A stretch of 64,000 bases of DNA from Nocardia farcinica (GTDB lineage Bacteria; Actinomycetota; Actinomycetes; Mycobacteriales; Mycobacteriaceae): contig NZ_LN868938.1 of NCBI RefSeq assembly GCF_001182745.1, positions 1,364,001 to 1,428,000 of the forward strand, given 5' to 3'. This document shows positions 26,252-43,589 of this stretch, piece by piece. A program made the position numbers and the translations under genes. The notes beneath the pieces were generated by a model, which saw only the letters and a list, made by a program, of their open reading frames with translations, searched no databases and was not told the origin of the DNA. Numbering within the stretch: the first letter of the stretch is position 1; every line of letters begins with the position of its first letter.

Positions 26252-26277
26252 TTACCCATACCGACCGATCGGTAAAC
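26252..26277 (-). promoter_or_regulatory. SigF-type promoter upstream of the response regulator
   Basis: On the minus strand GTTT (26277-26274), 16 bases, then GGGTAA (26257-26252). The start would be near 26245, about 60 bases before the gene. The site overlaps an imperfect palindrome ACCGA/TCGGT (26260-26273), which may be a second operator. Confidence 0.55.
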
Positions 26278-26480
26278 GCGGGTTTGCTGGAATGTGGCGC
26301 GGATCGCTCGAACGGACGCGCGAAAAGCTCTCGATCAACCATCCCCCACGGCGCGCGCCCGCGCAAGGGCGCTATGGTACCGGTCACATCCCGCCGCCGC
26401 TGCCCGGCAACTCTCCCAGGGCGGCCGCACGGGCGTGCCGGGGACGCCGAACATGGCCGCTGCCACCGTGATCGGCGCCT

Positions 26481-26506
26481 GGTTTGCGGCCTCTGACCGG
26501 GGGTAG
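26481..26506 (+). promoter_or_regulatory. SigF-type promoter of ctpI
   Basis: GGTTT (26481-26485), 15 bases, GGGTAG (26501-26506). This matches the mycobacterial SigF consensus GGTTT-N15/17-GGGTA exactly. The ctpI ATG is only nine bases beyond, so the mRNA is nearly leaderless. Confidence 0.75.
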
Positions 26507-26515
26507 CTGCCGGTT

Positions 26516-29500
26516 ATGGGCTTTTCTGTGCGGAGAGATCTTCTCGGACCGTTGGTCACCACACCGATGTCGCTGGCGGGTACGGTCGCCCGCGCGGGCG
26601 CCGGGCTGGCGCTGGACGCCGGCGGCAAAGTGGCCACCGTTCCTCTGCGCGCGGTCGAGTCCGGTGTGCAGTGGGCGGCGGCGGGCACCGAGGCGTTGTT
26701 ACCGGAGACCACCGTGCGGCTGCGGGAGGAGACGGTGCGGTGGCGCGACGACCTGATCGATCTGATCGACCCGCGGCCGGATCGCACGCATCGCCGCGTC
26801 GACCTGCACGAGCAGCGGGCCACCGTGGAGGTGCGGGGACTGGACGGCGACCGGGCCCCCGACATCGCCGAGGCGCTGGGCAAGCGCCTCGATCGGTTGC
26901 GCGCGGTGCGCTGGTGGGAGATCAACTCGGTGACCGGCCGGGTGGTGGCGGCGCTGGCCGACGGCGCCGCCGACCTGCCCGCGTTTCTGGCCGAGGTGGA
27001 ACGCACCGAACGCGACACCGACGTCGCCGACCGTGACTGGAGCCGCCGCGCCGAATTTCCCGCCGACCGGGAACCGCTGCTGGCCACCACGATTCAGGTC
27101 GCGGGCGATCTGGCCGCGCTCGGCGTCGCGGCCGCCGGGCTGCTTATCCCCGGCAAACCGCCGACCCGGGTGCTGCGCGCCGCGGCCACCCTCACCGACA
27201 CCCAGCCGCGCCTGCGCAAGGTGCTGGAGGAGCGCCTGGGCCGCCCCCGCACCGACCTGCTGCTCAGCATCACCAACGCCGTCGGCAACGCGCTGAACGA
27301 GGGCGCCGCCGAGGGGGTGGTGAACCTGGTGGTCGACACGGTGCAGCGGTCGATCATGATGACCGAGGCGATCACCCGCCACCAGCAGTGGCGCGCCTGG
27401 GAACACACGTTGACCTCGCACGACGCCTTGGCCGTCGATCAGCCGCTGCCCGCACACGAACGCCCGGCCGAGATGCCGAAGGGTCCGGTCGAGCGGGTCG
27501 CCGACGAAACCGCGGCGGGCGCGCTGGCCGGCGCCGGAGCGTTCGGCATCGCCGGGCGGCTCGGTCCCGCGGCCTCGGCGCTGGAACTCGGCGCGCCCAA
27601 GGCGGCCAGGGCGACCAGGGAAGCGTATGCGGCGGCGGCATCGACGACGCTCGCCCGCGCGGGCGTGCTCACGCTGCACCCGGGCGCGTGGCGCCGGTTC
27701 GACCGGCTGTCGGTCCTGGTCGTCGACGGCGAATCGCTGCTCACCCGCCGCCGCATGGTGCTCGATGCCGAAGCCGTCGACCCGCACTGGCGCGATCCGG
27801 GCACGACCCGGCGCGCCGACCCCGCGTTCTCCCGCGACGGCAGCGCGGACCGCACCGAGCGCGCCACCGCGATGATCCCCGCCGACGAACACCCCGCCGA
27901 CGCTCCCACCGGCGCGGCGACGCCCGGCCAGGACACCGCGCCTGCCGATTCCGCGCACTCCCCCGCCGACGAGGCCCGCGCGGCCGCGCACGTCTGGACC
28001 GCCGCGCAGCGGCTGCTGCACGAACAGGAGAAGGGCGGGGCGGCCGCGGGCGGCCTGCGGCTGGTGCATCCCGACACCGGCTCCCCGGATCGCGGCGCGA
28101 CCTTGCGACCGGCCTGGCGGGAACTCCGCGACGGCGACCGCGTGGTGGGACGGGTGCTGGTCGGGCGGGAGCTGGACCGGCGTGCCCACGCCGTGCTCAC
28201 CGCGGCCCGCAACGCCGGGCTGCGGGTGGTGCTGGTCGGCGGCGACGACGTGGCCGAATTGCGCACGCTCGCCGACGAGTTCCGCACCTCGGCGGGGTCG
28301 ATGAGCGCGGTGGTGCACCGCGCGCAGGAGGACGGGCACGTCGTCGCGGTGCTCAGCCCGCGCGCCTACAAGGCGTTGGCGTGGGCGGATGTGGCGATCG
28401 GGCTGAGCCCGGTCGAACACGGCTGCCCGCGGCCACCGTGGAGTTCCGACATCGTCTGCCGCGACCTGGTCCAGGTGCAGCGGGTGCTCGCGGCGGTCGG
28501 CCCGGCCCGGCAGGCCAGCGAACGTGGCCGCGCGCTCGCCCTGTCCGGCGCGGCACTGGCCGCGCTGCTGCTGGCCATCGGCCCCGAGCAGCGTGGCCGC
28601 ACCTCCCCGATCGTCACCGCCCACGTGCTCGGCCTGCTCAACGGCGCCGTCGGCGGCTGGCAGGCGGTGCGCAGACAGCCGCGTGACGACCTGGCCCCGC
28701 TGCTGCCCTGGCACGCCCTGGGCCCCGGCGAGGTCGTGGCCCGGCTACCGGAGCCGCCGGGTCTCGACGAGCGCGCCGAGGCGCAGCGGTCGAAGCTGGG
28801 CGCCGCACTGGCCCCGCTCGCCCCGGCGGTGTCCTTCGGCAGGCAGCTGCGGCGGGAACTGGCCGACCCGCTGACGCCGATCCTCGGCGTGGGTGCCGTG
28901 GCCACCGCGATTCTCGGCTCCCCCTCCGATGCCATCCTGCTGTCCTCGGTGCTCACCGTGAACGCGGTGGTCTCGGCGCGCCAGCGCCAGCGCGCCGAGC
29001 ACGCGTTGCAGGATCTGATGGCCGACGAGGAACTGACCGCGCGGCTGGTCGGCCGTTCCGGGGACGCCGAGCAGGTGATCCCGGCCCACCGGCTGCGGGT
29101 CGGCGATCTCATCCGGCTGCGCGCGGGCGATGTGGTGCCCGCCGACGCCCGGCTGATCGAACTGGACGATCTCGAACTGGACGAATCCGGACTCACCGGT
29201 GAGTCGGTCACCGTGGAGAAGCAGCTGGCCGCCACGCCGGGCGCGGCGCTGGGCGACCGGGCCTGCATGGTCTTCGAGGGCAGCACGGTGGTCAGCGGCG
29301 CGGGCACCGCGGTCGTGGTCGCCGTCGGCGCCGACACCCAGGCCGGGCGGGCGGCCGCGGGGGCGATGCCGCCGGAGAAGGGCGGCGTGCAGGCGCAGCT
29401 GCGCAGGCTCACCGACCGCGCGCTTCCGCTCACCCTCGCCGGCGGCACCGCCGTGACGGCACTGGGCGGCCTGCGCCGCCAGCCGCTGCGCACCGCGATC

Positions 29501-31309
29501 GCCGACGGTGTCGGTGTCGCGGTGGCGGCGGTACCGGAGGGTCTGCCGCTGGTGGCTACGGTGGCGCAGCTGGCGGCGGCCCGCCGGTTGTCCCGGTTCG
29601 GTGTGCTGGTGCGCGCCAGCCGCACCGTCGAGGCGCTGGGCCGCGTCGACACCCTGTGCTTCGACAAGACGGGTACCCTCACCGAGGGCAAGCTGCGGCT
29701 GACCACGCTGGCCGACCTGGACGAGCAGTGGGAGCCCGACACCGACAGCGACCGGGCCCGCCGGTTGCTGCGCGCGGCCGCCCGCGCCTGCCCCGACCCC
29801 GCCGACGGCCCGGTGCTGCACGCCACCGACCGCGCGGTGCTCGACGCCGCCGAGGTGCTGGGCGACGAAGCGCACCGCTGGGATCCGATCGAGGAGATCC
29901 CCTTCGAATCCAACCGCGGTTACGCCGCCGCCATCGGCCAGACCACCCGGCGGCTGCGCCTGGTCGTCAAGGGCGCGCCGGAGGTGGTGCTGCCCCGGTG
30001 CAGCAAGGTGCGCACCGGCGACCAGCCCAAGCAGGCACTCACCGAGGAACTGCGCGAGCGGGCCGTCCGGCGGGTGGCCGAGCTGGCCGAACAGGGCCTG
30101 CGGGTGCTCGTGGTGGCCCGCCGCGACCTGGCCGACCGCCCCGAGGACATGGAGGACGCGGTCGGCGAACTCACCCTGCTCGGTTTCCTCGGCCTGGCCG
30201 ACACCCCGCGGCCGCAGACCGTGCCGCTGGTGAAGTCGTTGCAGGACAACGGCATCGGTGTGCGGATGATCACCGGCGACCACCCCGTCACCGCGGCCGC
30301 GGTGGCGAAGCAACTCGGCATCGAGGTCGGCGAGGTCACCACCGGCGCCGACCTCGACCGGCTCGACGAGACCGCCCAGATCGAGCGCATCGAGCGGAGC
30401 ACCGTGTTCGCGCGGGTGAGCCCGGAGCACAAGGTGCGCATCGTCGCGGCACTGCGCAAGGCCGGCCACGTGGTGGGGATGACCGGCGACGGCAGCAACG
30501 ACGCCGCCGCCATCCGCACCGCCGACGTCGGCATCGGCCTGGCCGCGCACGGCTCGGCCGCCGCCCGCAACGCCGCCGACATGGTGCTCACCGACGCCGA
30601 CCCGACCGCGCTGCTGCACGCGCTGGTGGAGGGCCGCGGCATGTGGCAGCGCATCAGTGCCGCGGTGGGCGTGCTGGTGGGCGGCAACGCGGGTGAGGTG
30701 GCCTTCACTCTCTACGGGACCGCGGTGAGTGGTCACGCGCCGCTGGGCACCCGGCAGTTCCTGCTGGTCAACATGCTCACCGACATGTTCCCGGCGCTGG
30801 CACTGGCGCTGGCCCAGGACCGGGAGACGGCGGCGGGGGTGGACACCGCCCAGCGCGCGGCGCAGCTGTCGGAGATCCCGCCCGCCCATCTGGGCGCCGA
30901 GCTGGCGCACACCATCGCCGTGCGCGGGCTCGCGACCGCGGCCGGTGCCGCAGGCGCCTGGACGGTCGGCCGGTTCGTCGCCACCCCGCGCCGCGCCGCC
31001 ACCATCGGCCTGGTCGCGCTGATCGGCACCCAGCTGGGGCAGACGCTCGTCTCGGGGCATCGCAGCCCCGGCGTGTGGCTCACCACCGCCGTCAGTGGCG
31101 CGGTGCTGTGCGGTGTGGTGATGACACCGGGCGTGTGCCACTACTTCGGCTGCACCCCGCTGGGACCGCTCGGCTGGACCATCGCGACCACCTCCGCGGT
31201 GGCGGCGACCGCGGGCTCGATCGTGCTGCCGCGCGTGCTCCCGAACGGCCTGCTGCCCAACGGCGCGCTGCCCGCGGCACCGGCCTCGTCCGACGCGGAT
31301 CCGCAGTGA
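26516..31309 (+). CDS. ctpI: Giant P-type cation-transporting ATPase (CtpI-like)
   Basis: This 1597-residue protein matches the size and layout of mycobacterial CtpI. The C-terminal half is a complete P-type ATPase: TGES near 895, PEGLP in the M4 helix, DKTGTLT with the phosphorylated Asp near 1050, and GDGSNDAAAIRTADVGIG near 1323. PEGLP resembles P2 (calcium-type) pumps, but the ion is unknown. The N-terminal half has a small HMA-like alpha/beta segment and a degenerate HAD-like region (around residues 560-640, ending WADVAIGLSP) that looks like a second, inactive ATPase-type domain. It is preceded by a SigF consensus promoter and has no ribosome site, consistent with a leaderless message. 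Confidence 0.88.
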   Translation: MGFSVRRDLLGPLVTTPMSLAGTVARAGAGLALDAGGKVATVPLRAVESGVQWAAAGTEALLPETTVRLREETVRWRDDLIDLIDPRPDRTHRRVDLHEQRATVEVRGLDGDRAPDIAEALGKRLDRLRAVRWWEINSVTGRVVAALADGAADLPAFLAEVERTERDTDVADRDWSRRAEFPADREPLLATTIQVAGDLAALGVAAAGLLIPGKPPTRVLRAAATLTDTQPRLRKVLEERLGRPRTDLLLSITNAVGNALNEGAAEGVVNLVVDTVQRSIMMTEAITRHQQWRAWEHTLTSHDALAVDQPLPAHERPAEMPKGPVERVADETAAGALAGAGAFGIAGRLGPAASALELGAPKAARATREAYAAAASTTLARAGVLTLHPGAWRRFDRLSVLVVDGESLLTRRRMVLDAEAVDPHWRDPGTTRRADPAFSRDGSADRTERATAMIPADEHPADAPTGAATPGQDTAPADSAHSPADEARAAAHVWTAAQRLLHEQEKGGAAAGGLRLVHPDTGSPDRGATLRPAWRELRDGDRVVGRVLVGRELDRRAHAVLTAARNAGLRVVLVGGDDVAELRTLADEFRTSAGSMSAVVHRAQEDGHVVAVLSPRAYKALAWADVAIGLSPVEHGCPRPPWSSDIVCRDLVQVQRVLAAVGPARQASERGRALALSGAALAALLLAIGPEQRGRTSPIVTAHVLGLLNGAVGGWQAVRRQPRDDLAPLLPWHALGPGEVVARLPEPPGLDERAEAQRSKLGAALAPLAPAVSFGRQLRRELADPLTPILGVGAVATAILGSPSDAILLSSVLTVNAVVSARQRQRAEHALQDLMADEELTARLVGRSGDAEQVIPAHRLRVGDLIRLRAGDVVPADARLIELDDLELDESGLTGESVTVEKQLAATPGAALGDRACMVFEGSTVVSGAGTAVVVAVGADTQAGRAAAGAMPPEKGGVQAQLRRLTDRALPLTLAGGTAVTALGGLRRQPLRTAIADGVGVAVAAVPEGLPLVATVAQLAAARRLSRFGVLVRASRTVEALGRVDTLCFDKTGTLTEGKLRLTTLADLDEQWEPDTDSDRARRLLRAAARACPDPADGPVLHATDRAVLDAAEVLGDEAHRWDPIEEIPFESNRGYAAAIGQTTRRLRLVVKGAPEVVLPRCSKVRTGDQPKQALTEELRERAVRRVAELAEQGLRVLVVARRDLADRPEDMEDAVGELTLLGFLGLADTPRPQTVPLVKSLQDNGIGVRMITGDHPVTAAAVAKQLGIEVGEVTTGADLDRLDETAQIERIERSTVFARVSPEHKVRIVAALRKAGHVVGMTGDGSNDAAAIRTADVGIGLAAHGSAAARNAADMVLTDADPTALLHALVEGRGMWQRISAAVGVLVGGNAGEVAFTLYGTAVSGHAPLGTRQFLLVNMLTDMFPALALALAQDRETAAGVDTAQRAAQLSEIPPAHLGAELAHTIAVRGLATAAGAAGAWTVGRFVATPRRAATIGLVALIGTQLGQTLVSGHRSPGVWLTTAVSGAVLCGVVMTPGVCHYFGCTPLGPLGWTIATTSAVAATAGSIVLPRVLPNGLLPNGALPAAPASSDADPQ

Positions 31310-31340: not shown

Positions 31341-31365
31341 GATTCGCGGCCGGGTCGCTGGGTAA
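31341..31365 (+). promoter_or_regulatory. SigF-type promoter of the Pro-rich/Balon-like operon
   Basis: GATT (31341-31344), 15 bases, GGGTAA (31360-31365). The start would be near 31372, giving a leader of about 190 bases that contains the dispersed repeat. Confidence 0.55.
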
Positions 31366-31559: not shown

Positions 31560-31952
31560 ATGAACGACCGCACACCACCGGACCCGACACCGGACCCCGT
31601 CCCGCCGGTACCGGAGCCGGACCCGGTGCCCGGTCACCCGATCCCACCCGAGCCTGACCCGGTCCCCTTCCCACCCGAACCCGACCCGGTGCCCTTCCCA
31701 CCCGAACCCGAACCCGGCCATCCCTTCCCGCCCGAGCCCGGCAGGCCAGAGCCCCCCGAGCCGGGTCATCCGTTCCCGCCGGAACCCCACCGCCCCGTCC
31801 CGCCCGGCGACCCGGGTACGCCCGGCGAGCCGCACCCACCGGGCGAGCCGGGCAGACCGGTGCCGCCGGTCCCTGGACCCGATCCGCGCGATCCCACCCC
31901 ACCGCCCGCGCCGGGCCCCGGACCGGACCCGATACCGCCGAACCCGCAGTGA
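31560..31952 (+). CDS. Proline-rich low-complexity protein
   Basis: This 130-residue protein is almost entirely Pro with Glu, Asp, Gly and Val, in repeats like PEPDPVPFPP. There is no signal peptide or membrane segment. The ATG follows GAGGAGGAC. It is the first gene of an operon with the Rv2629-like gene 14 bases on. It may be a disordered scaffold or spacer. Composition alone could sustain such a frame, but the ribosome site, promoter and spacing support it as a gene. Confidence 0.65.
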   Translation: MNDRTPPDPTPDPVPPVPEPDPVPGHPIPPEPDPVPFPPEPDPVPFPPEPEPGHPFPPEPGRPEPPEPGHPFPPEPHRPVPPGDPGTPGEPHPPGEPGRPVPPVPGPDPRDPTPPPAPGPGPDPIPPNPQ

Positions 31953-31966: not shown

Positions 31967-33034
31967 GTGCTCGACGACATGTCCGCGATCGACCTGCGCG
32001 CGCTCGCGACCCGTCCCGGCCCGTTCGCCTCGGCGTACTACGACAGTTCGCACAACACCGAGGACGCCGCACGGCAGCTGGCGTTGCGGTGGCGCTCGAT
32101 CGCCGAGAAGCTGCGCGCGGCAGGCGCTTCGGAGTCCATGCTCGACGTGCTCGCCGAGGCCGCGGTGCGCGGCAGGCCCGATCGCGGCCGTGCCGGGCAC
32201 CTGCTGATCGCCGACGAGAACGAGGTCCTCGTCGACGTGGAGTTGCCGCAGCCACCGGCCCGTGAGGTCGTGCGCGTCTCGGAACTGCCCTATGTCCTGC
32301 CGTTGCTGGAGGCACGCGCGCATCGGGTGCCGCATGTGGTCGCGGTGGTCGACAAGGTGGGTGCCGACCTCTACGCCGTCGACGAGAACGGCGGCGAACG
32401 CAGGCGCACCGTGCGCGGCGAAGACCACCCGGTGCACAAGGTGCCCGGCGGGGGCTGGTCGCACCGCACGATGCAGACCCGGGTCGAGGAGACCACCCGC
32501 CGCAACCTCGGCGAAGTCGCCCACGACGTCGAAGAACTGGCCGAGGCCGCACACGCCGAGGTCATCGTGCTCGCCGGTGAGGTCGAATCCCGCGCGAAGC
32601 TGCACGCCGAGCTCGGCAAGCAGCATCACCGCGTGATCGAGGTGGAGACCGGCGGCCGGGCCGCGGGCGTCGACCCGGCCGCCTTGGACGCCCGCGTGCA
32701 CGAGGTGGTCGACGAGTGCGCCGACCACCACCGGGCCGACGCGCTGGACAGTTTCCGCGCCGCGCTCGGCCGCGCCGACGGCCTGGCCGTGCAGGGCCTG
32801 CACGAAACCGCCCGCGCGCTGGCCGAAGGCAACGTCGCCACACTGCTCATCGACACCGACGCGGTACCCGAGACGACCATCCACCTCGACCCGCGCCATC
32901 CCGAACAGCCGCGGGAGCGGCGGGCCGACGAGGCGCTACCGGTCGCGGCGATCGCCTCGGGCGCGGAGATCACCCCGGTACACGGCGCGCAGGCCCCCGC
33001 CGACGGCGTCGGCGCCCTGCTGCGCCACCGCTGA
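31967..33034 (+). CDS. Rv2629/Balon-like eRF1-fold protein (baeRF family)
   Basis: This 355-residue protein matches the mycobacterial Rv2629 family, bacterial relatives of archaeal release factor aeRF1/Pelota. The central PGGGWSHRTMQTRVEETTRRNLGE is the hallmark, followed by an eRF1-type alpha/beta domain (VIVLAGEVESRAKLHAEL) and a C-terminal ATLLIDTDA block. Balon, of the same group, binds the ribosomal A site during dormancy. Rv2629 itself belongs to the dormancy regulon. GTG 31967 is chosen because AAGGAGGT lies four bases upstream; a GTG at 31949 overlaps the previous stop. Expression from a SigF-type promoter fits a ribosome-protecting role. Confidence 0.85.
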   Translation: MLDDMSAIDLRALATRPGPFASAYYDSSHNTEDAARQLALRWRSIAEKLRAAGASESMLDVLAEAAVRGRPDRGRAGHLLIADENEVLVDVELPQPPAREVVRVSELPYVLPLLEARAHRVPHVVAVVDKVGADLYAVDENGGERRRTVRGEDHPVHKVPGGGWSHRTMQTRVEETTRRNLGEVAHDVEELAEAAHAEVIVLAGEVESRAKLHAELGKQHHRVIEVETGGRAAGVDPAALDARVHEVVDECADHHRADALDSFRAALGRADGLAVQGLHETARALAEGNVATLLIDTDAVPETTIHLDPRHPEQPRERRADEALPVAAIASGAEITPVHGAQAPADGVGALLRHR

Positions 33035-33077: not shown

Positions 33078-33260
33078 ATGGAACGCGGAAACACCAAGCA
33101 CGGACCTGTCGCCGACGAGGAGCTGGCCCACGAACTGGAGGGCACCCTGCGGGGCAACCGGTCCAGCCGGGCCGAGGAATGGCGCGACCCGGAACCGCCC
33201 GCCGACGACGACAATCCCGCCGCCGACCGGGTGGAACGCACCGAACTCGATACCGAATAG
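33078..33260 (+). CDS. Small acidic hydrophilic protein
   Basis: This 60-residue, very charged protein (MERGNTKHGPVADEELAHELEGTLRGNRSSRAEEWRDPE...) looks intrinsically disordered. AAGGAGG lies five bases before the ATG, an excellent ribosome site. It is the third gene of the SigF-type operon. I know of similar short acidic proteins near stress genes in actinomycetes, but no function. Confidence 0.78.
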   Translation: MERGNTKHGPVADEELAHELEGTLRGNRSSRAEEWRDPEPPADDDNPAADRVERTELDTE

Positions 33261-33277: not shown

Positions 33278-33310
33278 GCAGGCGCTGCGCGTCAATCGCG
33301 CAGCGCCTGC
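33278..33310. terminator. Bidirectional hairpin overlapping the sigF stop
   Basis: A perfect 13-base stem, GCAGGCGCTGCGC (33278-33290) with its complement at 33298-33310, encloses a seven-base loop. It terminates the Balon-like operon and sigF from opposite sides. It includes the last codons of sigF. Confidence 0.75.
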
Positions 33311-34077
33311 TCGCGTAAGGCGTGCAGCGTCTTGGACAGGATGCGCGAGACGTGCATCTGCGAGACACCGAGCACATCCGCGATCTGGGTCTGGGTCTTG
33401 CCCTCGAAGAACCGCATCACCAGCACCTGCCGCTCACGCTCGGGCAGTTCGGCGATGAGCGGGCGCACCGCCAGGTAGTCGTCGACGAACTCGAAGGACG
33501 GCTCCTCCGCGCCCAGGCTCTCCGACAGCGGCAACGGGGTGTTCTCGCCGTCGTCGCCCGCGGTCGAATCCAGCGACGAGGACTGGTAGGCATTGCCCGC
33601 GATGAGCGCCTGGGTGACCTCCACGACGTCGATGCCGAGCTCGGCGGCGATCTCACGGGCGCGCGGCATCCGCCCCAGCCGCTGCGAGAGCTCCTCGACG
33701 GTGGCGCCGATGCTGCCCTGGATCTCCTTGGTGCGGCGCGGAACCCGCACCGCCCAGGTGTTGTCGCGGAAGTGCCTGCGCACCTCGCCCATGATCGTCG
33801 GCACCGCGAAGGCCAGGAACGAGGAGCCGCGGCCGACGTCGAAGCGGTCGGCGGCCTGCACCAGGCCCAGGCGCGCCACCTGCAGCAGATCCTCGAACGA
33901 CTCCCCGCGGCCGGAGAAGCGGCGCGCGATGTGCTCGGCCAGCGGCAGCGCCCGGTCGATCACCTCGGCGCGCAGCGCGGTCCGGCGCGGGTCGCCGGGA
34001 TCGAGCGCCGCGATCTTCTCGAACAGCGGCTCGATGTTGTCGTAGCTGTCGCCCGCCGACCGGGACTCAGCTGCCAT
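33292..34077 (-). CDS. sigF: Alternative sigma factor SigF (SigB/SigF/SigG family)
   Basis: This 261-residue sigma factor has region 2 (DLLQVARLGLVQAADRFDVGRGSSFLAFAVPTIMGEVRRHFRD), region 3 (EELSQRLGRMPRAREIAAEL) and region 4 (RQVLVMRFFEGKTQTQIADVLGVSQMHVSRIL). Lacking region 1, it belongs to the general-stress group. ATG 34077 overlaps rsbW by 11 bases. A GGTTT-N15-GGGTAC promoter precedes rsbW, so sigF is probably autoregulated. Sites of the same type occur before nearly every unit from 26.2 to 43.6 kb. Confidence 0.93.
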   Translation of the reverse strand: MAAESRSAGDSYDNIEPLFEKIAALDPGDPRRTALRAEVIDRALPLAEHIARRFSGRGESFEDLLQVARLGLVQAADRFDVGRGSSFLAFAVPTIMGEVRRHFRDNTWAVRVPRRTKEIQGSIGATVEELSQRLGRMPRAREIAAELGIDVVEVTQALIAGNAYQSSSLDSTAGDDGENTPLPLSESLGAEEPSFEFVDDYLAVRPLIAELPERERQVLVMRFFEGKTQTQIADVLGVSQMHVSRILSKTLHALREQALRD

Positions 34078-34504: not shown

Positions 34505-34574
34505 CACCACCTCACTCCACACGCTGCCGGTTCGCCACGAGCGGCCACCGGACCGTCGCGGGCTCGGGGAGCGC

Positions 34575-35387: not shown

Positions 35388-35779
35388 GCCTCCATGGCGG
35401 CACGCATGGACGGGTAGCGCGGGAACTGGGAGCGGACGCCGGTGATCTCCAGCGATCGCTCGATCTCCCGCCGCCCGGTGACGACGCGCAGGTCGACACC
35501 GTGTCGGGCGGCCTCGCCGCGGACCGTGCCGAGCATGGCGGCGGCCCGGATACTCAGGAACCGGGCGGCCCGCAGGTCCACCACGACGGCATGGCAGTCC
35601 GAGTGGGTGGCCCGATCCAGTGTCTCGTGGAATCGGTGCTGGGCGAGCGCGTCGAGTTCGCCTTCGATGCGGATCACCACGCACCGGTGGCGATGCTCGA
35701 CCCGCTGGGCGCAGACCCGTCCGCCGGGCGAGCGCGGATCGGCGTCGTGGTTGCTCGAGATCGTGGCGTCTACTGACAT
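35384..35779 (-). CDS. STAS-domain protein (anti-anti-sigma factor-like)
   Basis: This 131-residue STAS protein has VVIRIEGELDALAQHRFHETL and VVVDLRAARFLSIRAAAML. In phosphorylatable anti-anti-sigma factors the last segment reads like F-x-D-S-S-G; here it is FLSIRA, so the usual acceptor Ser is displaced or missing. It may act unregulated by phosphorylation, or bind another partner. AGGGAGG lies five bases before the ATG. It begins the operon leading to the ANTAR gene and possibly to rsbW-sigF. Confidence 0.83.
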   Translation of the reverse strand: MSVDATISSNHDADPRSPGGRVCAQRVEHRHRCVVIRIEGELDALAQHRFHETLDRATHSDCHAVVVDLRAARFLSIRAAAMLGTVRGEAARHGVDLRVVTGRREIERSLEITGVRSQFPRYPSMRAAMEA

Positions 35780-36073: not shown

Positions 36074-38233
36074 TTATGCCGGAATCGCCGAGGTCGCCCG
36101 CTGCCACGTCCGATGGTTCGCCAGTGCCCGCGCCAGATCGGCCACGAATCGCTCGTCAAGACCGTCACCGTGGGTGTCGGTGGTTATCACGCCGGTGGTC
36201 GGGTCGGCCTCGTGCACCCGCGCCGCGTCGAGGATGCCCGCGATCCGCAACAGCGAGACACCCGCACCGAACGCCGCGACCGGTTTGGCGTGCTTGAACG
36301 CCTCGAGGACGAAATGCACCGCCTCGCCGTTGCGGGTCAGCGTCTCCACTCCGGTCTGCCCGCCGGCGACCACGACGCCGTCATAGAGCACCGAGGCCAC
36401 CGTCATCAGCGTGCGATCGACCGGCAGGGTGTCGCCGTCGCCGCCGTCGGCGTGCACCATGCCGCCGTGCGAGGCGATCACCTCCACGATCGCGCCGCGT
36501 TCGGTGAGCGCCGAGCGCAGCGCCCGCACCCCCGCCGCGTCCACTCCGTCGGCGGCCAGCACCGCGACCTGCCGGGTGGCGATGCCGTCCTTGGCGGTGT
36601 GGGCTTGCGAGAGGGCCGGGGAGACGAAGGCATCGGTGCCGGCCTCGGGGTCCGGCGGCGGCGCGGGCAGACCGAGCCGGCCCGCCACCCGCACGGCCAG
36701 GTCGGGGTCGATGCGCACCAGCTGGCCGAGCGTGCGCTCGCGGATCTCCACCCGCTGCACCTTGCCGAGTTCGAAGGCGAAGGCCTCCACGATGTGTTCG
36801 GCCTCCGGTGCGGACATGCTGCGCCAGAACATCCGCGGCTGCCGGTAGTACTCCCGGAAGCTCTCGGCGCGCCGGCGCTGCGCCCGGCCGTCCACCTGCC
36901 GCGGGTAGTGCTCGTAGGAGCCGTCGCCGCCCACGACGGGGCAGCCGCCGCCGATGCTGTTGACGGTGTAGCTCGCCTGCCCGCGCGGGATGGCGTGCTG
37001 GCCGTAGCCGTCCTGCTGGTGGTTGCGCACGTCGGCGACCGGGCGGTTGATCGGGATCTGGGCGAAGTTGGGGCCGCCGAGCCGGATCAGCTGGGTGTCC
37101 AGATAGGAGAAGTTGCGCAGTTGCAGCAGCGGGTCGTCGGTGAAGTCGATGCCCGGCACCAGGTTGGCGGTGTGGAAGGCGACCTGCTCGGTCTCGGCGA
37201 AGAAGTTGTCCGGGTTGCGGTCGAGCACCATCCGGCCCACCGGCAGCACGGGCACCTGTTCCTCGGGGACCAGCTTGGTGGCGTCGAGCAGGTCGAAGTC
37301 GAAGTCGAACTCCTTCTCCACCGGGATGAGCTGCACGCCCAGCTCCCACTCCGGATAGTGCCCGGCCTCGATGCAGTCCCACAGATCGCGGCGGTTGTAG
37401 TCGGGGTCGCGCCCGGCGATCTGCTGGCATTCGTCCCACACCAGCGAGTGCACCCCGAGCTTGGGCGTCCAGTGGAACTTCACGAAGGTCGGCGTGCCCG
37501 CGGCGTCGAGGAACCGGAAGGTGTGCACGCCGAAGCCCTGCATCATCCGGTAGCTGCGCGGCAGCGCCCGGTCCGACATCAGCCACATGATCGCGTGCAG
37601 GGTCTCCGGCTGCAGCGACACGAAGTCCCACAGGGTGTCGTGCGCCGAGGCGGCCTGCGGTATCTCGTTGTGCGGCTCGGGTTTCACCGCGTGCACGAAG
37701 TCGGGGAACTTGATGCCGTCCTGGATGAAGAACACCGGGAAGTTGTTGCCGACCAGGTCGTAGTTGCCCTGCGAGGTGTAGAACTTGGTCGCGAAACCGC
37801 GCACGTCGCGCACGGTGTCGGCCGAACCACGGGAACCGGCGACGGTGGAGAAGCGCACGAACACCGGGGTGCGTTCGGCGGGATCGGTCAGGAACTTCGC
37901 GACGGTGTATTCGGCCAGCCGGTCGTCGTAGGGCTGGAAGTAGCCGTAGGCACCGGCGCCGCGCGCGTGCACCACGCGTTCGGGGATGCGCTCGTGATCG
38001 AAGTGGGTGATCTTCTCCCTGGCATGGAAGTCGTCGAGCAGCGTGGGGCCGCGGGCGCCGGCCGAGAGCGCGTCGTCGGTGTGGCGCACTCGCACGCCCT
38101 GCTGGGTGGTGAGGTGGCCCTGCTCCCGGTCGACCCGGTGGGCGTCGAGCTGACGCTGCTTGCGATCCGCTCCGCCGGCGGCGTGGTCGGCGTCGGCGGC
38201 ATTGTCGGGGGTGTCGGGGGTGTGCCCAGTCAT
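36074..38233 (-). CDS. katE: Large-subunit catalase HPII with C-terminal flavodoxin-like domain
   Basis: This 719-residue clade-2 catalase degrades H2O2. The distal His lies in [14 protein letters not shown], Asn in [14 protein letters not shown], and the heme Tyr in [17 protein letters not shown]. The catalase core is followed by a class I glutaminase/DJ-1-like domain (about 560-719, [17 protein letters not shown]...) typical of HPII. The C-terminal domain carries [11 protein letters not shown] and no clear catalytic Cys. ATG 38233 has a GAGGTGAGG leader. A SigF-type promoter lies upstream. Confidence 0.95.
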
Positions 38234-38464: not shown

Positions 38465-39730
38465 GTGAAGATCGCCCTGGTATCCGAGCACGCCAGCCCC
38501 CTCGCCGAACCGGGCGGACCCGAAGGCGGTCAACAGCTGCACGTCGCCGAGCTGGCGGCGGCGCTGGCGCGGCGCGGGCACTCGGTCACCGTCTACACCC
38601 GCCGCGTCGATCCGCACACCAGGACCGAGGTGCTCACCCGTCCCGGCTACCGGGTGGTGCACGTACCCGCGGGCCCGCCCGAGCCGTTGCCGCGCGACCG
38701 CACCCTGCCGCACCTGGGTGAGTTCGGCACCTTCCTGCGCAGGCACTGGCTCACCGACCGACCGCAGCTGGTGCACGCGCACTTCTGGATGTCGGCGCTG
38801 GCGGCCGAGCTGGCCGCGCGAGCCTTCGACATCCCCGTGGTGGTCACCTTCCACGCCTTGGGCACCGTCAAGCGCAGGCACCAGGGCCTCGCCGACACCA
38901 GCCCGCCCTCACGCATCCGGTTCGAGCGGCTGATCGCCACCCGCGCCCGGCACATCCTGGCCACCAGCGTGGACGAGGCGGTGGAGCTGGTGCGCATGGG
39001 CGTGCCGCGCTTCCGCATCTCGGTGGTGCCCTCGGGTGTCGATGTCACGGCGTTCACCCCGGGCGGCGCGGCCGCCGACCGCAAGGCGCGGCACCGGCTG
39101 TTGTGCGCGGGAAAGTTGCTGCCGCGCAAGGGATTCGACGTCGCGGTGCGCGCCATGCCCGAACTGCCCGGCACCGAGCTGGTGATCGCGGGCGGCGCGG
39201 TCGGCGACGACGTGGCCGACGACGCGGAAACCAAACGGTTGCGCAGGCTGGCCGCCGAATGCGGTGTGGGCGACCGGGTCCGGCTGCTCGGCCGGGTCTC
39301 GCACAGCGCCATGCCCCGGCTGTACCGCTCCGCCGACGCGGTGCTGGCCATCCCGCGCTACGAGCCGTTCGGGCTGGTGGCGCTCGAGGCGATGGCCTGC
39401 GGCAGGCCGGTCGTCGCCACCGCCGTGGGCGGCATGCTCGATGCGGTGGTCGACGGCGTGACCGGACGTTTCGTCGCCCCGGCCGCCCCCGAGACCGTCG
39501 CGCGCGCGGTACGCCCGCTGCTCGACGACGACGTGCTGCGCCGCACCTGGGGCGCGGCGGGGTGCGAGCGGGTGCGCGAGCGCTACTCCTGGGACCGGGT
39601 GGCGGAGCGGACGCTGGCGGTCTACCACCGGGCCGCACCGACCCGGGACAGCGCGCTGGCGCGCGAGCTGGTCGATCCGGCGCTCAGCCGGCGCGCCGCC
39701 CCGGCCCGCGCCACCGCCACGGCGAGATGA
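38465..39730 (+). CDS. Glycosyltransferase family 4 protein
   Basis: This 421-residue GT-B enzyme has an N-terminal ALVSEHASPLAEPGGPEGGQQLHVAEL loop that binds the acceptor and a C-terminal nucleotide-sugar site with YEPFGLVALEAMACGRPVVAT, where Glu contacts the donor. Retaining GT4 enzymes build envelope glycans, trehalose-like sugars or phosphoinositides. GTG 38465 has GGAG five bases upstream. Divergence from katE suggests stress-linked envelope or compatible-solute chemistry. Its tail overlaps the DUF6328 gene by 47 bases. Confidence 0.88.
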   Translation: MKIALVSEHASPLAEPGGPEGGQQLHVAELAAALARRGHSVTVYTRRVDPHTRTEVLTRPGYRVVHVPAGPPEPLPRDRTLPHLGEFGTFLRRHWLTDRPQLVHAHFWMSALAAELAARAFDIPVVVTFHALGTVKRRHQGLADTSPPSRIRFERLIATRARHILATSVDEAVELVRMGVPRFRISVVPSGVDVTAFTPGGAAADRKARHRLLCAGKLLPRKGFDVAVRAMPELPGTELVIAGGAVGDDVADDAETKRLRRLAAECGVGDRVRLLGRVSHSAMPRLYRSADAVLAIPRYEPFGLVALEAMACGRPVVATAVGGMLDAVVDGVTGRFVAPAAPETVARAVRPLLDDDVLRRTWGAAGCERVRERYSWDRVAERTLAVYHRAAPTRDSALARELVDPALSRRAAPARATATAR

Positions 39731-40181
39731 GCCAGGCGATCAGGAACGACACCGCCACCAGCGCGCCCGCCGCGGACCCCGCCGCCGGGTGGACGACGAT
39801 GTCCACCACCAGGACCAGCGACCCGACCAGCGCGACACCCAGCAGCGCCAGGCCCGCGATCGCGCAGCGGTGGGCGGCCGCCACCACGTTGGCCAGCCGG
39901 TGCCGGCGGAACAGGATCCGATGCCACGACACCGGCGCGACCAACAGCACCGTCGCACCGAAGGCCGCGGCAACGGTGGCCAGGTAGACCGCGCGCTCAC
40001 GGTCGGACAGTTCGGCGAACCCGGCTTGGAACGGCACGATCAGCAGGGCGCCGACCAGGAACTGCACCCCGGTCTGCACCACGCGCAGTTCCTGGACCAG
40101 GCTGTTCCAGTTGCGGTCCAGCCGTTCGGTTTCGGTCTCGCCCCTGGCCACCCGGTTCCAGGCGTCGTCAGGAACGCGCAC
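39684..40181 (-). CDS. DUF6328-type four-helix membrane protein
   Basis: This 165-residue protein opens with ETETERLDRNWNSLVQELRVVQTGVQFLVGALLIVPFQ and has about four membrane helices, as in the DUF6328 family. No function is established. Its ATG lies inside the 3' end of the ChaB-Rho_N gene (14-base overlap), so the two are co-translated from the SigF-type promoter at 40.65 kb. Confidence 0.82.
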   Translation of the reverse strand: MRVPDDAWNRVARGETETERLDRNWNSLVQELRVVQTGVQFLVGALLIVPFQAGFAELSDRERAVYLATVAAAFGATVLLVAPVSWHRILFRRHRLANVVAAAHRCAIAGLALLGVALVGSLVLVVDIVVHPAAGSAAGALVAVSFLIAWLISPWRWRGPGRRAG

Positions 40182-40590
40182 GGGCGGTCTCCCGGCGATT
40201 CTCCTTCTCGATCGCCGAGATCAGCTGGTGCTTGGTCATCTTCCACCGCCCCGTGATGCCCAGCCGCCCGGCGACATCGAGCAGGTGTTTCTTGGAGGCG
40301 TTGGCGTTCACCCCGCCCGCGGTCTCGCCTTCGGCATCGGGCCCGCCGTGTTCGGCGCGCTCGTCGGAGGGCCCGCGCTGCTCCTTGGCCTCCCAGTGGT
40401 CGCCGACCTTCTCGTAGCTGTGCTTGAGCGCGCTGTAGCCGACACGGTACGCGCGCTCCTCGCTGCCGTACTCGGCCAGGGCGGCATCGTGGGCTTTGGC
40501 GAAGGTGCGCTGCGCCTTCTCCTCCGAACGCCGCAGCGTGCTGGGCAGCTCGGACTTCTTCGCCTCCCCCGTGCGGGTGGTCTTCGGCAT
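40168..40590 (-). CDS. ChaB-Rho_N fusion protein
   Basis: This 140-residue protein joins two small domains: an N-terminal ChaB domain (LPSTLRRSEEKAQRTFAKAHDAALAEYG...ALKHSYEKVGDHWEAK) and a C-terminal Rho_N/SAP-like helix pair (SKKHLLDVAGRLGITGRWKMTKHQLISAIEKE), linked by an acidic stretch. Rho_N motifs bind nucleic acid. ATG 40590 has AGGGGG upstream; GTG 40596 is possible. It may be a nucleoid- or RNA-associated stress protein. Confidence 0.85.
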   Translation of the reverse strand: MPKTTRTGEAKKSELPSTLRRSEEKAQRTFAKAHDAALAEYGSEERAYRVGYSALKHSYEKVGDHWEAKEQRGPSDERAEHGGPDAEGETAGGVNANASKKHLLDVAGRLGITGRWKMTKHQLISAIEKENRRETARARS

Positions 40591-40650
40591 CTCCACTGCC
40601 CCCTTTCGGATCGGGTTCACCGGCGGTTTCCCGGCACTGGCACGGCTCGC

Positions 40651-40676
40651 ATACCCGTGCTCACCACTGATTAACC
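40651..40676 (-). promoter_or_regulatory. SigF-type promoter of the ChaB-Rho_N operon
   Basis: On the minus strand GGTTA (40676-40672), 15 bases, GGGTAT (40656-40651). The start would be near 40644. Its -35 overlaps that of the divergent promoter. Confidence 0.65.
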
Positions 40677-40693
40677 GACCTGGCGCCGGGTAT
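40669..40693 (+). promoter_or_regulatory. SigF-type promoter of the nucleotidyltransferase operon
   Basis: GATT (40669-40672), 15 bases, GGGTAT (40688-40693). The ATG at 40703 is nine bases beyond, as for ctpI. Its -35 shares base 40672 with the minus-strand -35, so only one polymerase can bind at a time. Confidence 0.6.
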
Positions 40694-40702
40694 CACGCCG
40701 GC

Positions 40703-41278
40703 ATGGTCGCCACGATGGACGAATTGCTGCACGCCCTCACGCGTGCCGTGAACGCCCTGTCCGAATCCGACGTGCGGTTCGCGGTGGCGGGCGGCTGCGC
40801 GGTCTACGCCCGCGGCGGTCCCGCCTCCGACCACGACGTCGATCTGTTCGTCAAACCCGAGGACGCCTCCCGCGCCGTCCAGGTGCTCACCCGCGCCGGG
40901 CTGCGCGGCTGCGACCCCGCCGAGGACTGGCTCAAGAAGGTCTACGACCGCGACACCCTCATCGACATCATCTACCGCCCCAACTGCCGCGACGTCACCG
41001 ACGAGCTGCTCGACCGGGCCGAGACGATGCGGATCGGTCCCGCGGTCGCGCCGGTGGTCAGCGCCACCGACCTGATGGTGGACAAGCTGCTGGTCTTCGA
41101 CGCCCATCGGCTGGATCTGAGCCCGCTGCTGCACATCGCCCGCGATCTGCGCGAGCAGGTCGACTGGCCGCAGGTGCGCGCGGAGACGATCCACTCCCCC
41201 TACGCGAAGGCCTTCCTCGGGCTGATCGACGATCTCGGCATCGCCGACACGCGCGCCGACATGAAGAAAGCCGGGTGA
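40703..41278 (+). CDS. Nucleotidyltransferase-fold protein
   Basis: This 191-residue protein has a minimal nucleotidyltransferase core: VAGGCAVYARGG, then SDHDVDLFV with the two metal-binding acids, and a later acidic IDIIYRP. It resembles MNT/AbiEii-like or aminoglycoside-type transferases, but no toxin partner is adjacent. No ribosome site precedes the ATG, fitting a nearly leaderless mRNA from the promoter at 40.69 kb. The BON gene follows after six bases. The substrate is unknown. Confidence 0.82.
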   Translation: MVATMDELLHALTRAVNALSESDVRFAVAGGCAVYARGGPASDHDVDLFVKPEDASRAVQVLTRAGLRGCDPAEDWLKKVYDRDTLIDIIYRPNCRDVTDELLDRAETMRIGPAVAPVVSATDLMVDKLLVFDAHRLDLSPLLHIARDLREQVDWPQVRAETIHSPYAKAFLGLIDDLGIADTRADMKKAG

Positions 41279-41284
41279 GAACCG

Positions 41285-41548
41285 ATGGACAAGCCGCAGT
41301 ACCAGGTCGCCCACCTGCGCCGGGCCCTCGCCGAGGATCCGCGCACCGCGGAACTGGGTGTGCAGGTCACCATCCGCGGCGATGTCGTCGTCCTGGACGG
41401 CGAGGTGGCCAGCGAGGCGCTCAAGGAACAGATGACGGCGGTGGTGCGCGAACAGCTGCCGCAGCTGCGCGTCCACAACGACGTGCGGGTGGTGCATCCC
41501 GCCGCACCGGCGGGCGCCGAACACCTGTCGACCCCCGAAAGGAGTTGA
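41285..41548 (+). CDS. BON-domain protein
   Basis: This 87-residue protein is essentially one BON domain (LGVQVTIRGDVVVLDGEVASEALKEQMTAVVREQLPQLRVHNDVRV). BON domains bind lipid head groups or membranes and often protect envelopes during osmotic stress, as OsmY does. There is no signal peptide, so it is cytoplasmic or attached to the inner face. It sits between the nucleotidyltransferase and phosphoesterase genes with gaps of six and five bases. Confidence 0.87.
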   Translation: MDKPQYQVAHLRRALAEDPRTAELGVQVTIRGDVVVLDGEVASEALKEQMTAVVREQLPQLRVHNDVRVVHPAAPAGAEHLSTPERS

Positions 41549-41553
41549 GCCGC

Positions 41554-42285
41554 ATGCGCATCGCCGCGGTTGGAGACGTCCATCTCGGCACCGATTCCGG
41601 CGGGCAGTTGCGCCCGGTGCTGCGCGAACTGCCGTTGCGGGCCGACGTCCTGCTGCTCGCCGGCGACCTCACCCGGCACGGCACCGTCGCCGAGGCCAGG
41701 GTGGTGGCCGAGGAGTTCGCCGATCTCGGAGTGCCCGTGCTGGCGGTGCTGGGCAACCACGACCACCACAGCGACGCGCAGGACGAGATCGCCGCGCTGC
41801 TCACCGACCACGGCATCACGGTGCTCGAGGGAACGGCCGCCACCGTCGAGATCGAGGGGCGCACCCTCGGTGTCGCGGGCACCAAGGGCTTCGGCGGCGG
41901 GTTCGCCGGCAAGTGCGCCAGCGTCTTCGGTGAGCGGATCATGCGCGAATTCGCCCAGCACACCTGCGATCTGGCGGAATCGCTGCGGGCGGTGCTGCGC
42001 GAGCTGCGCACCGATGTCACCGTCGTCCTCACCCACTACTCCCCCGTCAGCGACACCCTGCACGGCGAGCCGCGCGAGATCTATCCGTTCCTCGGCTCCT
42101 ATCTGCTCGGTGAGGTGATCGACGAGTTCGATGTCGACCTCGCGCTGCACGGGCACGCCCATGCCGGGACCGAGCGCGGCACCACCCCCGGCGGCATCCG
42201 CGTCCGCAACGTGGCCGAGCCGGTGATCCGGTCCGCCTACGCCATCTACGAACTCGAGCCCGCCCGCACCCGCGTGGGGCTGTGA
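41554..42285 (+). CDS. Calcineurin-like metallophosphoesterase
   Basis: This 243-residue enzyme has all five metal motifs: GDVHLG, AGDLTRHG, GNHDHH, LTHYSP and LHGHAHAG. The family hydrolyses phosphodiesters or phosphomonoesters with two metal ions. AAAGGAG lies nine bases before the ATG. Being third in the nucleotidyltransferase-BON operon suggests that a nucleotide or phospholipid-linked signal is made and removed by the same unit, but that is inference. Confidence 0.88.
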   Translation: MRIAAVGDVHLGTDSGGQLRPVLRELPLRADVLLLAGDLTRHGTVAEARVVAEEFADLGVPVLAVLGNHDHHSDAQDEIAALLTDHGITVLEGTAATVEIEGRTLGVAGTKGFGGGFAGKCASVFGERIMREFAQHTCDLAESLRAVLRELRTDVTVVLTHYSPVSDTLHGEPREIYPFLGSYLLGEVIDEFDVDLALHGHAHAGTERGTTPGGIRVRNVAEPVIRSAYAIYELEPARTRVGL

Positions 42286-42305
42286 GCCACGCCGCCGTCC
42301 CGGTC

Positions 42306-42330
42306 GATTGGCCGGAAGAGCCACGGGTAT
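42306..42330 (+). promoter_or_regulatory. SigF-type promoter of the UsfY-like operon
   Basis: GATT (42306-42309), 15 bases, GGGTAT (42325-42330). The start would be near 42337, about 37 bases before the ATG, which has its own AAAGGAG. Confidence 0.6.
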
Positions 42331-42373: not shown

Positions 42374-42685
42374 ATGATGAGTGCCCAGAGCCATTCCCCC
42401 CAGCACGGGGACTTCCCCGACCACGCCAGGACGATGCGATCGCACGCGGGCGAAGCCATCGAGGACACCCGCAACTGGCCGGGCATGATCCTGGTCGGAC
42501 TCGGCATCGTGACCGTCGGCCTGACGCTGGTCGCGGCCGGTTACGGCTTCGAGGGCTGGGCGATCATCGGCGGCATCGCCGCAGCCCTGTTCCTGATCAT
42601 CGGGGCGGTGCTGATCCTCGCCGAGCACCGCAGGCTCCAGAAGCTCTCCGACCGGAATTCGGGTTTCGACGACCGGGGTCACTGA
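42374..42685 (+). CDS. usfY: UsfY-like small membrane protein
   Basis: This 103-residue protein has a hydrophilic N-terminus with DHARTMRSHAGEAIEDTRNWPG, two membrane helices, and a basic LAEHRRLQKLSDR tail, the arrangement of mycobacterial UsfY, whose gene lies just upstream of sigF in M. tuberculosis. Function is unknown. AAAGGAG is three bases before the first of two adjacent ATGs; the second (42377) has better spacing. It opens an operon with two lipoprotein genes behind a SigF-type promoter. Confidence 0.75.
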   Translation: MMSAQSHSPQHGDFPDHARTMRSHAGEAIEDTRNWPGMILVGLGIVTVGLTLVAAGYGFEGWAIIGGIAAALFLIIGAVLILAEHRRLQKLSDRNSGFDDRGH

Positions 42686-42731
42686 CCCCGCCGCACACCG
42701 GCCGCGCCGGTGCCGAGAGGAAGAACTGAAC

Positions 42732-43193
42732 ATGACAGCCCCGAGCCCGCGCAGGCGGGCCTTCTCGGCGTTGCCCCTCGCCGCGGCGTGTGCGCTGCTG
42801 GCCGCCTGCGGCAACGCCCTAGAGACCGACCAGCCCGCGGTGCCCGCGACGCCGACCGATCCCGGTTTCGAAATGACCATCGCCCCGCCGTCGAGCTCGG
42901 TCACCGACGTTCCCGACCCCGACCGGATCTCTCCGGAAGCCGCCACCGCGCTGTGCGACACGATCCGCGCCGACCTGGACAGCTGGCGCGATCAGGGCTC
43001 GATCATCGCGCGGGTGAGCTTCAACGGCGCCGTGCACAACTGGGCGGTCCGCAACGGCGGACTCAACGACGCGGTGGTGCGCGACCGCTCCGTGGTCGAC
43101 ACCGCCACGACCACCCAGTGTCCGGATGTCCGCGACCGCGCACTCGAGGTGCTCGACGTCCCCGACCTGGCCGCCGCGCTGGCCGGGTTCTGA
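42732..43193 (+). CDS. Predicted lipoprotein, unknown function
   Basis: This 153-residue protein has a signal peptide ending in a clear lipobox (LLAAC, Cys26) followed by a Pro/Thr-rich spacer. The mature domain (SPEAATALCDTIRADLDSWRDQGSIIARVSFNGAVHNWAVRNGGL...) has two more cysteines that may form a disulfide. I do not recognise the family. It follows the UsfY-like gene by 46 bases with a GAGGAAG ribosome site. Confidence 0.8.
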   Translation: MTAPSPRRRAFSALPLAAACALLAACGNALETDQPAVPATPTDPGFEMTIAPPSSSVTDVPDPDRISPEAATALCDTIRADLDSWRDQGSIIARVSFNGAVHNWAVRNGGLNDAVVRDRSVVDTATTTQCPDVRDRALEVLDVPDLAAALAGF

Positions 43194-43223
43194 AGCCATG
43201 ACACACAGGAAGCGAGAGATCCG

Positions 43224-43541
43224 ATGAGAGCACCGCGGAACACCGTCGCGGCACTGCTGGCCGCCGCCGCCCTCGCCGCCTTCGGCACGGCGTGCGACGA
43301 GGCCGAGAAGGCGGTCAACAAGGGCGGAGACACTCCGTGCAGCGAGTTCACCGCCCAGGACGCCGACAAGAAGCGCACCACGGTGACGAAGTTCCTCGAG
43401 GAGGAACGCGGCGAAGCGCCCGCCGATCAGAACACCCTGGATCTGGCCATCGCCGCCATCGACCTGATGTGCAGCGCCCAGGCCGACCCGGACACCCCGA
43501 TCCACCAGGCGGACCTGACCGGCGTGCTGGTGCCCAAGTAG
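43224..43541 (+). CDS. Secreted HdeA-like small protein, paralogue of the 59.4-kb gene
   Basis: This 105-residue exported protein has a signal segment ending FGTAC, an imperfect lipobox. The mature part, NKGGDTPCSEFTAQDADKKRTTVTKFLEEERG...DLMCSAQ, has two cysteines spaced as in HdeA-type acid chaperones. It shares NKGGDTPC, KRTT-x-TKF and the distal Cys with the gene at 59406. It is third in the UsfY-like operon. A periplasmic chaperone or binding role under stress is plausible, not shown. Confidence 0.78.
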   Translation: MRAPRNTVAALLAAAALAAFGTACDEAEKAVNKGGDTPCSEFTAQDADKKRTTVTKFLEEERGEAPADQNTLDLAIAAIDLMCSAQADPDTPIHQADLTGVLVPK

Positions 43542-43564
43542 CCGCCCGTGATTGCGTCGGCCGC

Positions 43565-43589
43565 GTTTCGCGGCCACCGCAACGGATAT
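43565..43589 (+). promoter_or_regulatory. SigF-type promoter of the Rieske oxidoreductase
   Basis: GTTT (43565-43568), 15 bases, GGATAT (43584-43589), one mismatch to GGGTAT. The ATG is nine bases beyond the -10, the same geometry as ctpI and the nucleotidyltransferase gene. Confidence 0.55.

Follow-up and report, generated by a model that had tools for sequence, protein, structure and literature searches.

A conserved cluster of SigF-type promoters around rsbW-sigF in Nocardia farcinica, likely one stress regulon

In Mycobacterium smegmatis, a SigF-dependent gene cluster reaching up to sigF, MSMEG_1758-1804, has been published (PMC4694148, PMC5445863), with 28 genes numbered MSMEG_1758 to MSMEG_1804 in Table 1 of the former paper ahead of its phase-specific lists (counted from the table), and the SigF promoter is given there as GTTT-N14-19-GGGTA. 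In the same species, RsbW binds SigF and STAS antagonists free it (PMC7693655, PMC10950880). A related arrangement is described below for a 64,000-nucleotide stretch of Nocardia farcinica DNA (the window; contig NZ_LN868938.1, C1:1364001-1428000 of a 6.46-Mb genome in five contigs), in which nine conserved SigF-type promoters surround the rsbW-sigF gene pair.

The Nocardia block is a real, conserved SigF-type promoter island and a variant of a kind already known from M. smegmatis: in both, genes with SigF-type promoters stand beside rsbW-sigF, and SigF dependence is published for the M. smegmatis cluster (PMC4694148). In the available part of that paper, the cluster contains ChaB, UsfY and an extra RsbW, many of its promoters have the form GTTT-N15/16-GGGTA or carry GGGCA or GGGAA, and sigF stands at or near the cluster edge with its canonical promoter more than 1 kb upstream, whereas in the Nocardia block sigF lies inside and the promoter directly upstream of rsbW. 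The Nocardia block further differs in including katE, a GT4 glycosyltransferase gene, a ctpI-like ATPase gene and a nucleotidyltransferase operon, and in having GATT as a main -35 class, which was not seen in the available parts of the M. smegmatis table (PMC4694148). The regulons of the SigB homologues of Streptomyces coelicolor are alike in having several SigB/SigF-type factors, GTTT/GGGTA-type promoters and partner-switch control, with spacers that, counted from a six-base -35, overlap those of the Nocardia block, but the available text describes no target clustering at the sigma gene (PMC8346170). Genes for Balon/Rv2629 ribosome hibernation factors typically lie in stress-response operons, and activation by hypoxia is given for Rv2629 and Msmeg1130 (PMC10901736), whereas the Nocardia hibernation-factor gene has a conserved SigF-type promoter and sits beside sigF. 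No SigF regulon paper for Nocardia was found among the titles listed, and the papers listed by the searches, in which subscription papers were mostly outside coverage, gave no description of the Nocardia block, the family-wide enrichment or the interlocked promoters.

Sites, spacing and conservation

Ten promoter-type sites had been claimed on the correct strand by a reading of the window made from its letters alone (the sequence-only reading), and all ten were located as described. Nine of these form the island, and stand before the response regulator gene (26253-26277, minus strand, GTTT-N16-GGGTAA), ctpI (26482-26505, plus, GTTT-N15-GGGTAG), the Pro-rich open reading frame (ORF) and baeRF2 (31341-31364, plus, GATT-N15-GGGTAA), rsbW-sigF (34576-34599, minus, GTTT-N15-GGGTAC, a predicted autoregulatory site), katE (38305-38328, minus, GTGT-N15-GGGTAA), the GT4 gene (38331-38355, plus, GTTT-N16-GGGCAT), ChaB-DUF6328 (40652-40676, minus, GGTT-N16-GGGTAT), the nucleotidyltransferase operon (40669-40692, plus, GATT-N15-GGGTAT) and the UsfY-like gene (42306-42329, plus, GATT-N15-GGGTAT). 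The tenth, upstream of a DAO-Rieske gene (43565-43588, plus, GTTT-N15-GGATAT), is not conserved and lies outside the island. Exact GTTT...GGGTA occurs in three of the ten (response regulator, ctpI and rsbW), and six further conserved sites are one base off in one element (GATT, GGTT, GTGT or GGGCA). With GNTT as anchor (GTGT for katE), seven of the ten spacers are N15 and three N16; the earlier count of eight N15 spacers requires GTTA as the ChaB -35. Likewise, the length of 19 kb given earlier does not match the 17.3 kb between the outer coordinates, and about 19.7 kb is reached when the end genes are included.

Conservation was scored in 49 Nocardia loci (L001-L049) around orthologous sigF, using G[TGA]TT-N15/16-GGGTA upstream of orthologues as the main pattern and GGG[TCA]A as the relaxed form. 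The rsbW-sigF site was found in 47/48 orthologues, with GTTTC as -35 in all 47 other loci that have the site and GTTTG in the window. GTTT-N15/16-GGGTA stood before the response regulator in 25/25 orthologues (11 N15, 14 N16), the nucleotidyltransferase site was present in 31/31, always as GATT, and the ChaB site in 15/17, mostly with N15. No orthologue of the Pro-rich ORF was found in these loci, and GATT-N15-GGGTA stood directly before baeRF2 in 10/10 orthologues; more widely, of 16 baeRF2 genes, the 15 that had sufficient sequence upstream all carried the motif, 12 of them in short loci without sigF or rsbW. The ctpI site was present in 2/3 orthologues. The GT4 site, earlier regarded as merely weak, is kept as GTTT-N15/16-GGGCA in 25/27 orthologues, which does not support that label. 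Upstream of UsfY-like genes, GGGTA was found in 14/29 and GGG[TCA]A in 27/29, with varying classes (13 GTTT...GGGCA, 11 GATT, 3 GGTT, 2 none), so that some promoters (nucleotidyltransferase, baeRF2, rsbW) keep their own -35 and those of the UsfY-like genes do not. For katE, GTTT-N15-GGGCA or GGGAA was found in 4/5 block orthologues, and long catalases elsewhere in the genus had a related N15 site (GGG[TCA]A) in 5/6 at 72% identity or above and 7/8 near 50% (repeated katE locus counted once, split baeRF2 matches once per gene). Short catalases, with the motif in 1/14 including one 24% match, were not used as a control, because extrapolation had placed their starts too far upstream and the site of the genome's own copy had been cut off.

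The same scoring delimited the island. As the sequence-only reading had it, the STAS and PAS-ANTAR genes within the block have no such site: the GGGTA type was found in 0/45 and 0/44 upstream regions, respectively, and the relaxed form in 2/45 and 0/44. No SigF-type site was found upstream of orthologues of BON (0/30), GNAT (0/25) or ectB (0/25). The latter two adjoin the block at 23380-25193 (an aminotransferase gene, presumably ectB, and a gene that we take to encode a GNAT protein), and since neither has a site in 25 of 25 orthologues each, they mark the edge of the island.

Spacing near 15 was likewise borne out. In the Nocardia loci, GTTT preceded GGGTA at N15 in 77 cases, at N16 in 31, and in 0-3 at each of the remaining spacers between 10 and 22; for GATT, the counts were 56 at N15, 6 at N16, and otherwise 0 or 1. 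At the nine promoters, a pair of wrong spacers gave between 0 and 0.25 matches. Consensus-free enumeration of 4-mer/5-mer dyads upstream of 17 genes in other Nocardia, corrected for composition (raw counts were dominated by GC-rich words), ranked GTTT-N15-GGGTA first and GTTT-N15-GGGCA second. Elsewhere in the family, N16 was commoner than N15 for GTTT (25 vs 15). In the whole genome, GWTT-N15-GGGTA gave 64 matches and its reversed pattern 5; for the looser GKTT-N15/16-GGGTA the counts were 111 against 35.

Clustering at sigF in the genome and the family

After removal of two contig-end duplicates, 62 of the 64 GWTT-N15-GGGTA sites were retained, including three identical copies of a sequence that, in the one copy examined, lies in 23S rRNA. 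In a whole-genome comparison of density, which upheld the concentration noted in the sequence-only reading, the block was the densest 16-kb window, with 5/62 sites (P 0.0016 by simulation, at a window size picked after the block was seen); a 20-kb window gave P 0.0028. Gene calls for the genome background, the block and the family comparisons were made by a simple caller trained on the window, which misplaced some starts. On these calls, G[TAG]TT-N15/16-GGGTA was found in 4/14 block upstream regions against 4/453 in the background (Fisher P 3e-5), the block being undercounted here because some of its gene starts were misplaced.

Around orthologous sigF in the 49 Nocardia loci, 189/696 upstream regions of all genes carried the motif, against 18/461 near other SigF-type genes, and the share by successive 2.5-kb bins from sigF was 100/221, 52/175, 32/170 and 5/129. 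For genes with no orthologue detected in the window, some of which may be unrecognised orthologues or miscalled, the motif was found in 49/337 upstream regions, against 9/405 around other SigF-type genes and the 4/453 of the genome's own background. Outside Nocardia, the sample comprised 24 genomes, from 18 genera, out of the 30 family genomes with a SigF-type match better than 1e-40. In these, 54/294 upstream regions near the best SigF carried the motif, against 1/167 in 14 control stretches drawn from 14 of the 24 genomes, and 39/254 did so after removing same-strand regions within 1.5 kb of sigF; few of the genes of the block were detected around SigF in these 18 genera, yet the motif was enriched. 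Across 26 family genomes, 58 GTTT-N15/16-GGGTA sites were counted at 10 kb or less from the best SigF, against 2.7 expected (from each genome's own count, with genome sizes rounded), an approximately 22-fold enrichment, with at least one GTTT-type site in 20/26 genomes and an uncorrected P below 0.01 in 17/26.

Across the family, then, SigF-type promoters are frequently clustered at sigF, and the trait is not peculiar to the window. The sequence-only reading had called a contiguous block unusual, holding that SigF regulons are normally scattered; the published M. smegmatis cluster and the family-wide enrichment count against the first part, and the second stands, the regulon being scattered as well. 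In 20 stretches chosen for scattered sites, 32 sites were found. Two fall within rRNA genes; the other 30 are outside called protein genes, and 18 of these stand 31-68 bp before a called gene start. The genes that follow the sites (20 of 25 proteins were examined) include those for a Mn-catalase, which is SigF-dependent in M. smegmatis (PMC4694148), and for a heme catalase, hemerythrin, a CsbD-like protein, a STAS protein, COX1 and a P450.

Which sigma factor reads the cluster

We favor, at a probability of roughly 0.82, the reading that the nine conserved SigF-type promoters clustered at rsbW-sigF likely form one stress regulon, read by the sigma factor encoded among them; with nine promoters conserved, the stress genes of the block are likely switched on together by that factor. 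RsbW would keep SigF inactive, judging from its relatives, and a STAS anti-anti-sigma protein, perhaps the block's own, would release it under stress, a partner switch proposed because of the analogy with M. smegmatis. RNA polymerase carrying SigF would next transcribe from the rsbW-sigF promoter, forming a positive loop with a built-in brake, and would concurrently turn on the response regulator, the P-type ATPase, the ribosome hibernation factor, the catalase and the glycosyltransferase, as well as ChaB/DUF6328, the nucleotidyltransferase-BON-phosphoesterase operon and the UsfY/lipoprotein genes. The STAS and PAS-ANTAR genes, which have no such promoters, would provide an input expressed outside the loop. 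The sites amount to a promoter-level list of likely SigF targets for Nocardia, among them a ribosome hibernation factor and a long catalase.

Several observations weigh against this reading. Most strict sites (57/62) lie outside the block. Only three ctpI and five katE orthologues were available, and none of the five block orthologues of katE has the GGGTA form. The DAO-Rieske site, counted earlier as a member, has GGGTA in 0/28 orthologues and the relaxed form in 1/28, and was excluded from the island since it is not conserved. No GTTT-type site was found near SigF in 6/26 family genomes, and in several the whole-genome count is about that of the reversed control (11 vs 11 in G072, 28 vs 25 in G082), so that single sites there are uncertain. 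In alignment with the STAS antagonist RsfB, the serine of the block's STAS protein sits one position off the RsfB serine. Finally, the genome encodes five SigF-type sigma factors (identity 60-100%), near-identical in the segments that we take to be regions 2.4 and 4.2, and in S. coelicolor SigB homologues cross-recognise promoters (PMC8346170).

These last points open the possibility that one or more of the other four SigF-type factors are the main readers of the sites, the block being a shared stress hub. Two of the four paralogous genes, L134 (C1:87506) and L130 (C2:602016), themselves adjoin SigF-type sites: in one case the site precedes the sigma gene, in the other a STAS gene next to it. 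The tie to the block SigF alone made in the sequence-only reading is therefore too strong, given five factors with nearly identical DNA-recognition segments, and recognition by the block SigF is only inferred. It is nevertheless preferred because of position, the autoregulatory site and the much weaker enrichment around other SigF-type genes: among non-orthologous upstream regions the motif is far denser around the block sigF than around the others, and the rsbW-sigF promoter itself is kept in nearly every locus. A shared hub is regarded as rather unlikely.

Similarly doubtful is the view that synteny alone explains the cluster, in which case an ancient SigF locus would have stayed together by descent and its targets would not have been selected for clustering. 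The order of the block genes is common to many close Nocardia sigF loci, and the comparable M. smegmatis cluster would fit such descent. Against it, the motif is also enriched near sigF for genes without a detected window orthologue, and around SigF in 18 other genera where few block genes were detected. If the family-wide enrichment reflects selection, it becomes testable whether sitting beside their own sigma gene matters to stress genes. Chance or composition as the cause of the matches was rejected on the reversed-pattern and wrong-spacer counts and is given next to no weight, although the consensus is short, was partly fitted by eye and also matches within rRNA genes, since the genome holds 64 matches against 5 reversed and 30 of the 32 sites in the chosen stretches fall outside called protein genes.

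Interlocked divergent promoters and genes of the block

The -35 elements of the divergent ChaB and nucleotidyltransferase promoters interlock: GATT on the plus strand and GGTT on the minus strand jointly form GATTAACC (40669..40676), with one -10 on either side. The GATTAACC core and the facing site are kept in 16/31 nucleotidyltransferase upstream regions, and in the other 15 GATT is present but no site faces it there. When 118 Nocardia genomes were searched by pattern, 25 (N. farcinica included) had the interlocked arrangement, once each, and the reversed control gave no match. All 25 are at the same locus, 23 between nucleotidyltransferase and DUF6328; on the 3-kb locus of the remaining two, DUF6328 is present and no nucleotidyltransferase was detected. 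The katE and GT4 -35 elements in the window are 2 bp apart. A search of N. farcinica that required N15 in both promoters of a divergent pair and 0-30 bp between their -35s gave none, because the -35s of the true pair are interlocked. Elsewhere in the genome, two further divergent pairs with GTTT or GATT, L121 (C1:1710580/1710639) and L122 (C1:1775887/1775946), both have a -35 distance of 35 bp, and one of them is flanked by two glycosyltransferase genes.

Since the -35s interlock or nearly touch at two divergent pairs, two polymerases would probably exclude each other there; from the geometry, simultaneous binding at such a pair seems hardly possible. The interlocked promoters, with their shared -35 site, form a natural setting in which competition between two polymerases could be tested. 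A wider proposal, which we advance tentatively and hold to be improbable as a whole, is that the sigF neighbourhood is a family-wide standing landing place for SigF-driven genes, whose content turns over, whose promoter density is about 20-fold above the genome and in which nearness would be selected, and that the interlocked promoters sharing GATTAACC would act as either-or switches splitting one SigF polymerase pool between two operons.

The gene order of the block is common to many Nocardia sigF loci, the 80 SigF loci listed among named genomes are all from Nocardia (best identity 85%, N. lijiangensis and N. ninae), and most earlier gene names are supported by Pfam and NCBIfam profile searches. 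The sigF product (33292..34077, minus) has Pfam regions r2, r3 and r4 and scores 291 bits with TIGR02980 (SigB/SigF/SigG family, cut-off 234); with PRK07122, a narrower SigF model, it reaches only 343 where 372 is the cut-off. The end of rsbW (34067..34510, minus) overlaps the start of sigF, their reading frames overlapping; its product, an anti-SigF candidate, scores under the Pfam and NCBIfam cut-offs and matches the solved anti-sigma-F factor RsbW chains 8ih8_C (E 2.4e-12) and 8jzt_B (E 3e-12). Upstream lie the PAS-ANTAR gene (34617..35246, minus) and the STAS gene (35384..35779, minus), both named by family search, the latter encoding a candidate anti-anti-sigma protein with a weak match to RsfB (8ih8_A, E 0.008); an F[LM]S motif occurs in 37/45 STAS orthologues.

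On the left side of sigF stand the OmpR-type response regulator gene (25466..26185, minus, Pfam Response_reg and Trans_reg_C), the ctpI-like P-type ATPase gene (26516..31309, plus, about 1,590 aa, Pfam E1-E2_ATPase, Hydrolase and Cation_ATPase_C), whose ORF start at 26516 differs from the automatic caller's choice of 26567, the Pro-rich ORF (31560..31952, plus, 130 aa, no Pfam match), the gene of the Rv2629-family ribosome hibernation factor, a Balon relative (31967..33034, plus, Pfam baeRF_family2, NCBIfam NF052289 at 359 bits, above the family cut-off of 320), and a 60-aa ORF (33078..33260, plus) that is kept near sigF in some Nocardia. Beyond the STAS gene follow katE (36074..38233, minus), by family search a long catalase with a DJ-1-like C-terminal domain, the MshA-like GT4 glycosyltransferase gene (38465..39730, plus, TIGR03449 at 239 bits, below the cut-off of 462), the DUF6328 gene (39684..40181, minus, Pfam), the ChaB-Rho_N gene (40168..40620, minus, Pfam ChaB), the nucleotidyltransferase, BON and metallophosphoesterase genes (40703..42285, plus, Pfam), and the UsfY-like gene with two lipoprotein-like genes (42377..43541, plus). 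The first of these last three is called only UsfY-like, its product scoring 75.9 bits with NCBIfam UsfY, under the cut-off of 100, and the label of the other two is that of the sequence-only reading, no family match being found in Pfam or NCBIfam.

At the nucleotidyltransferase gene (40688-40705) and the ctpI-like ORF (26501-26518), 10 bp separate the -10 element from the first ATG, so that near-leaderless transcripts are likely for both if these ATGs are the starts. ARAGORN reported a tRNA-Gly at 27789-27872 (minus), antisense within the ctpI-like gene, which is probably a false positive. The spacer of the response-regulator promoter (26253-26277) contains the palindrome ACCGATCGGT, a possible operator between -35 and -10; some of the Nocardia loci keep it as ACCG-N2-CGGT or in a similar form. 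An extra GTTT-N15-GGGTA site lies at 12993-13016 (minus), about 45 bp before a 77-aa ORF and 13 kb outside the block.

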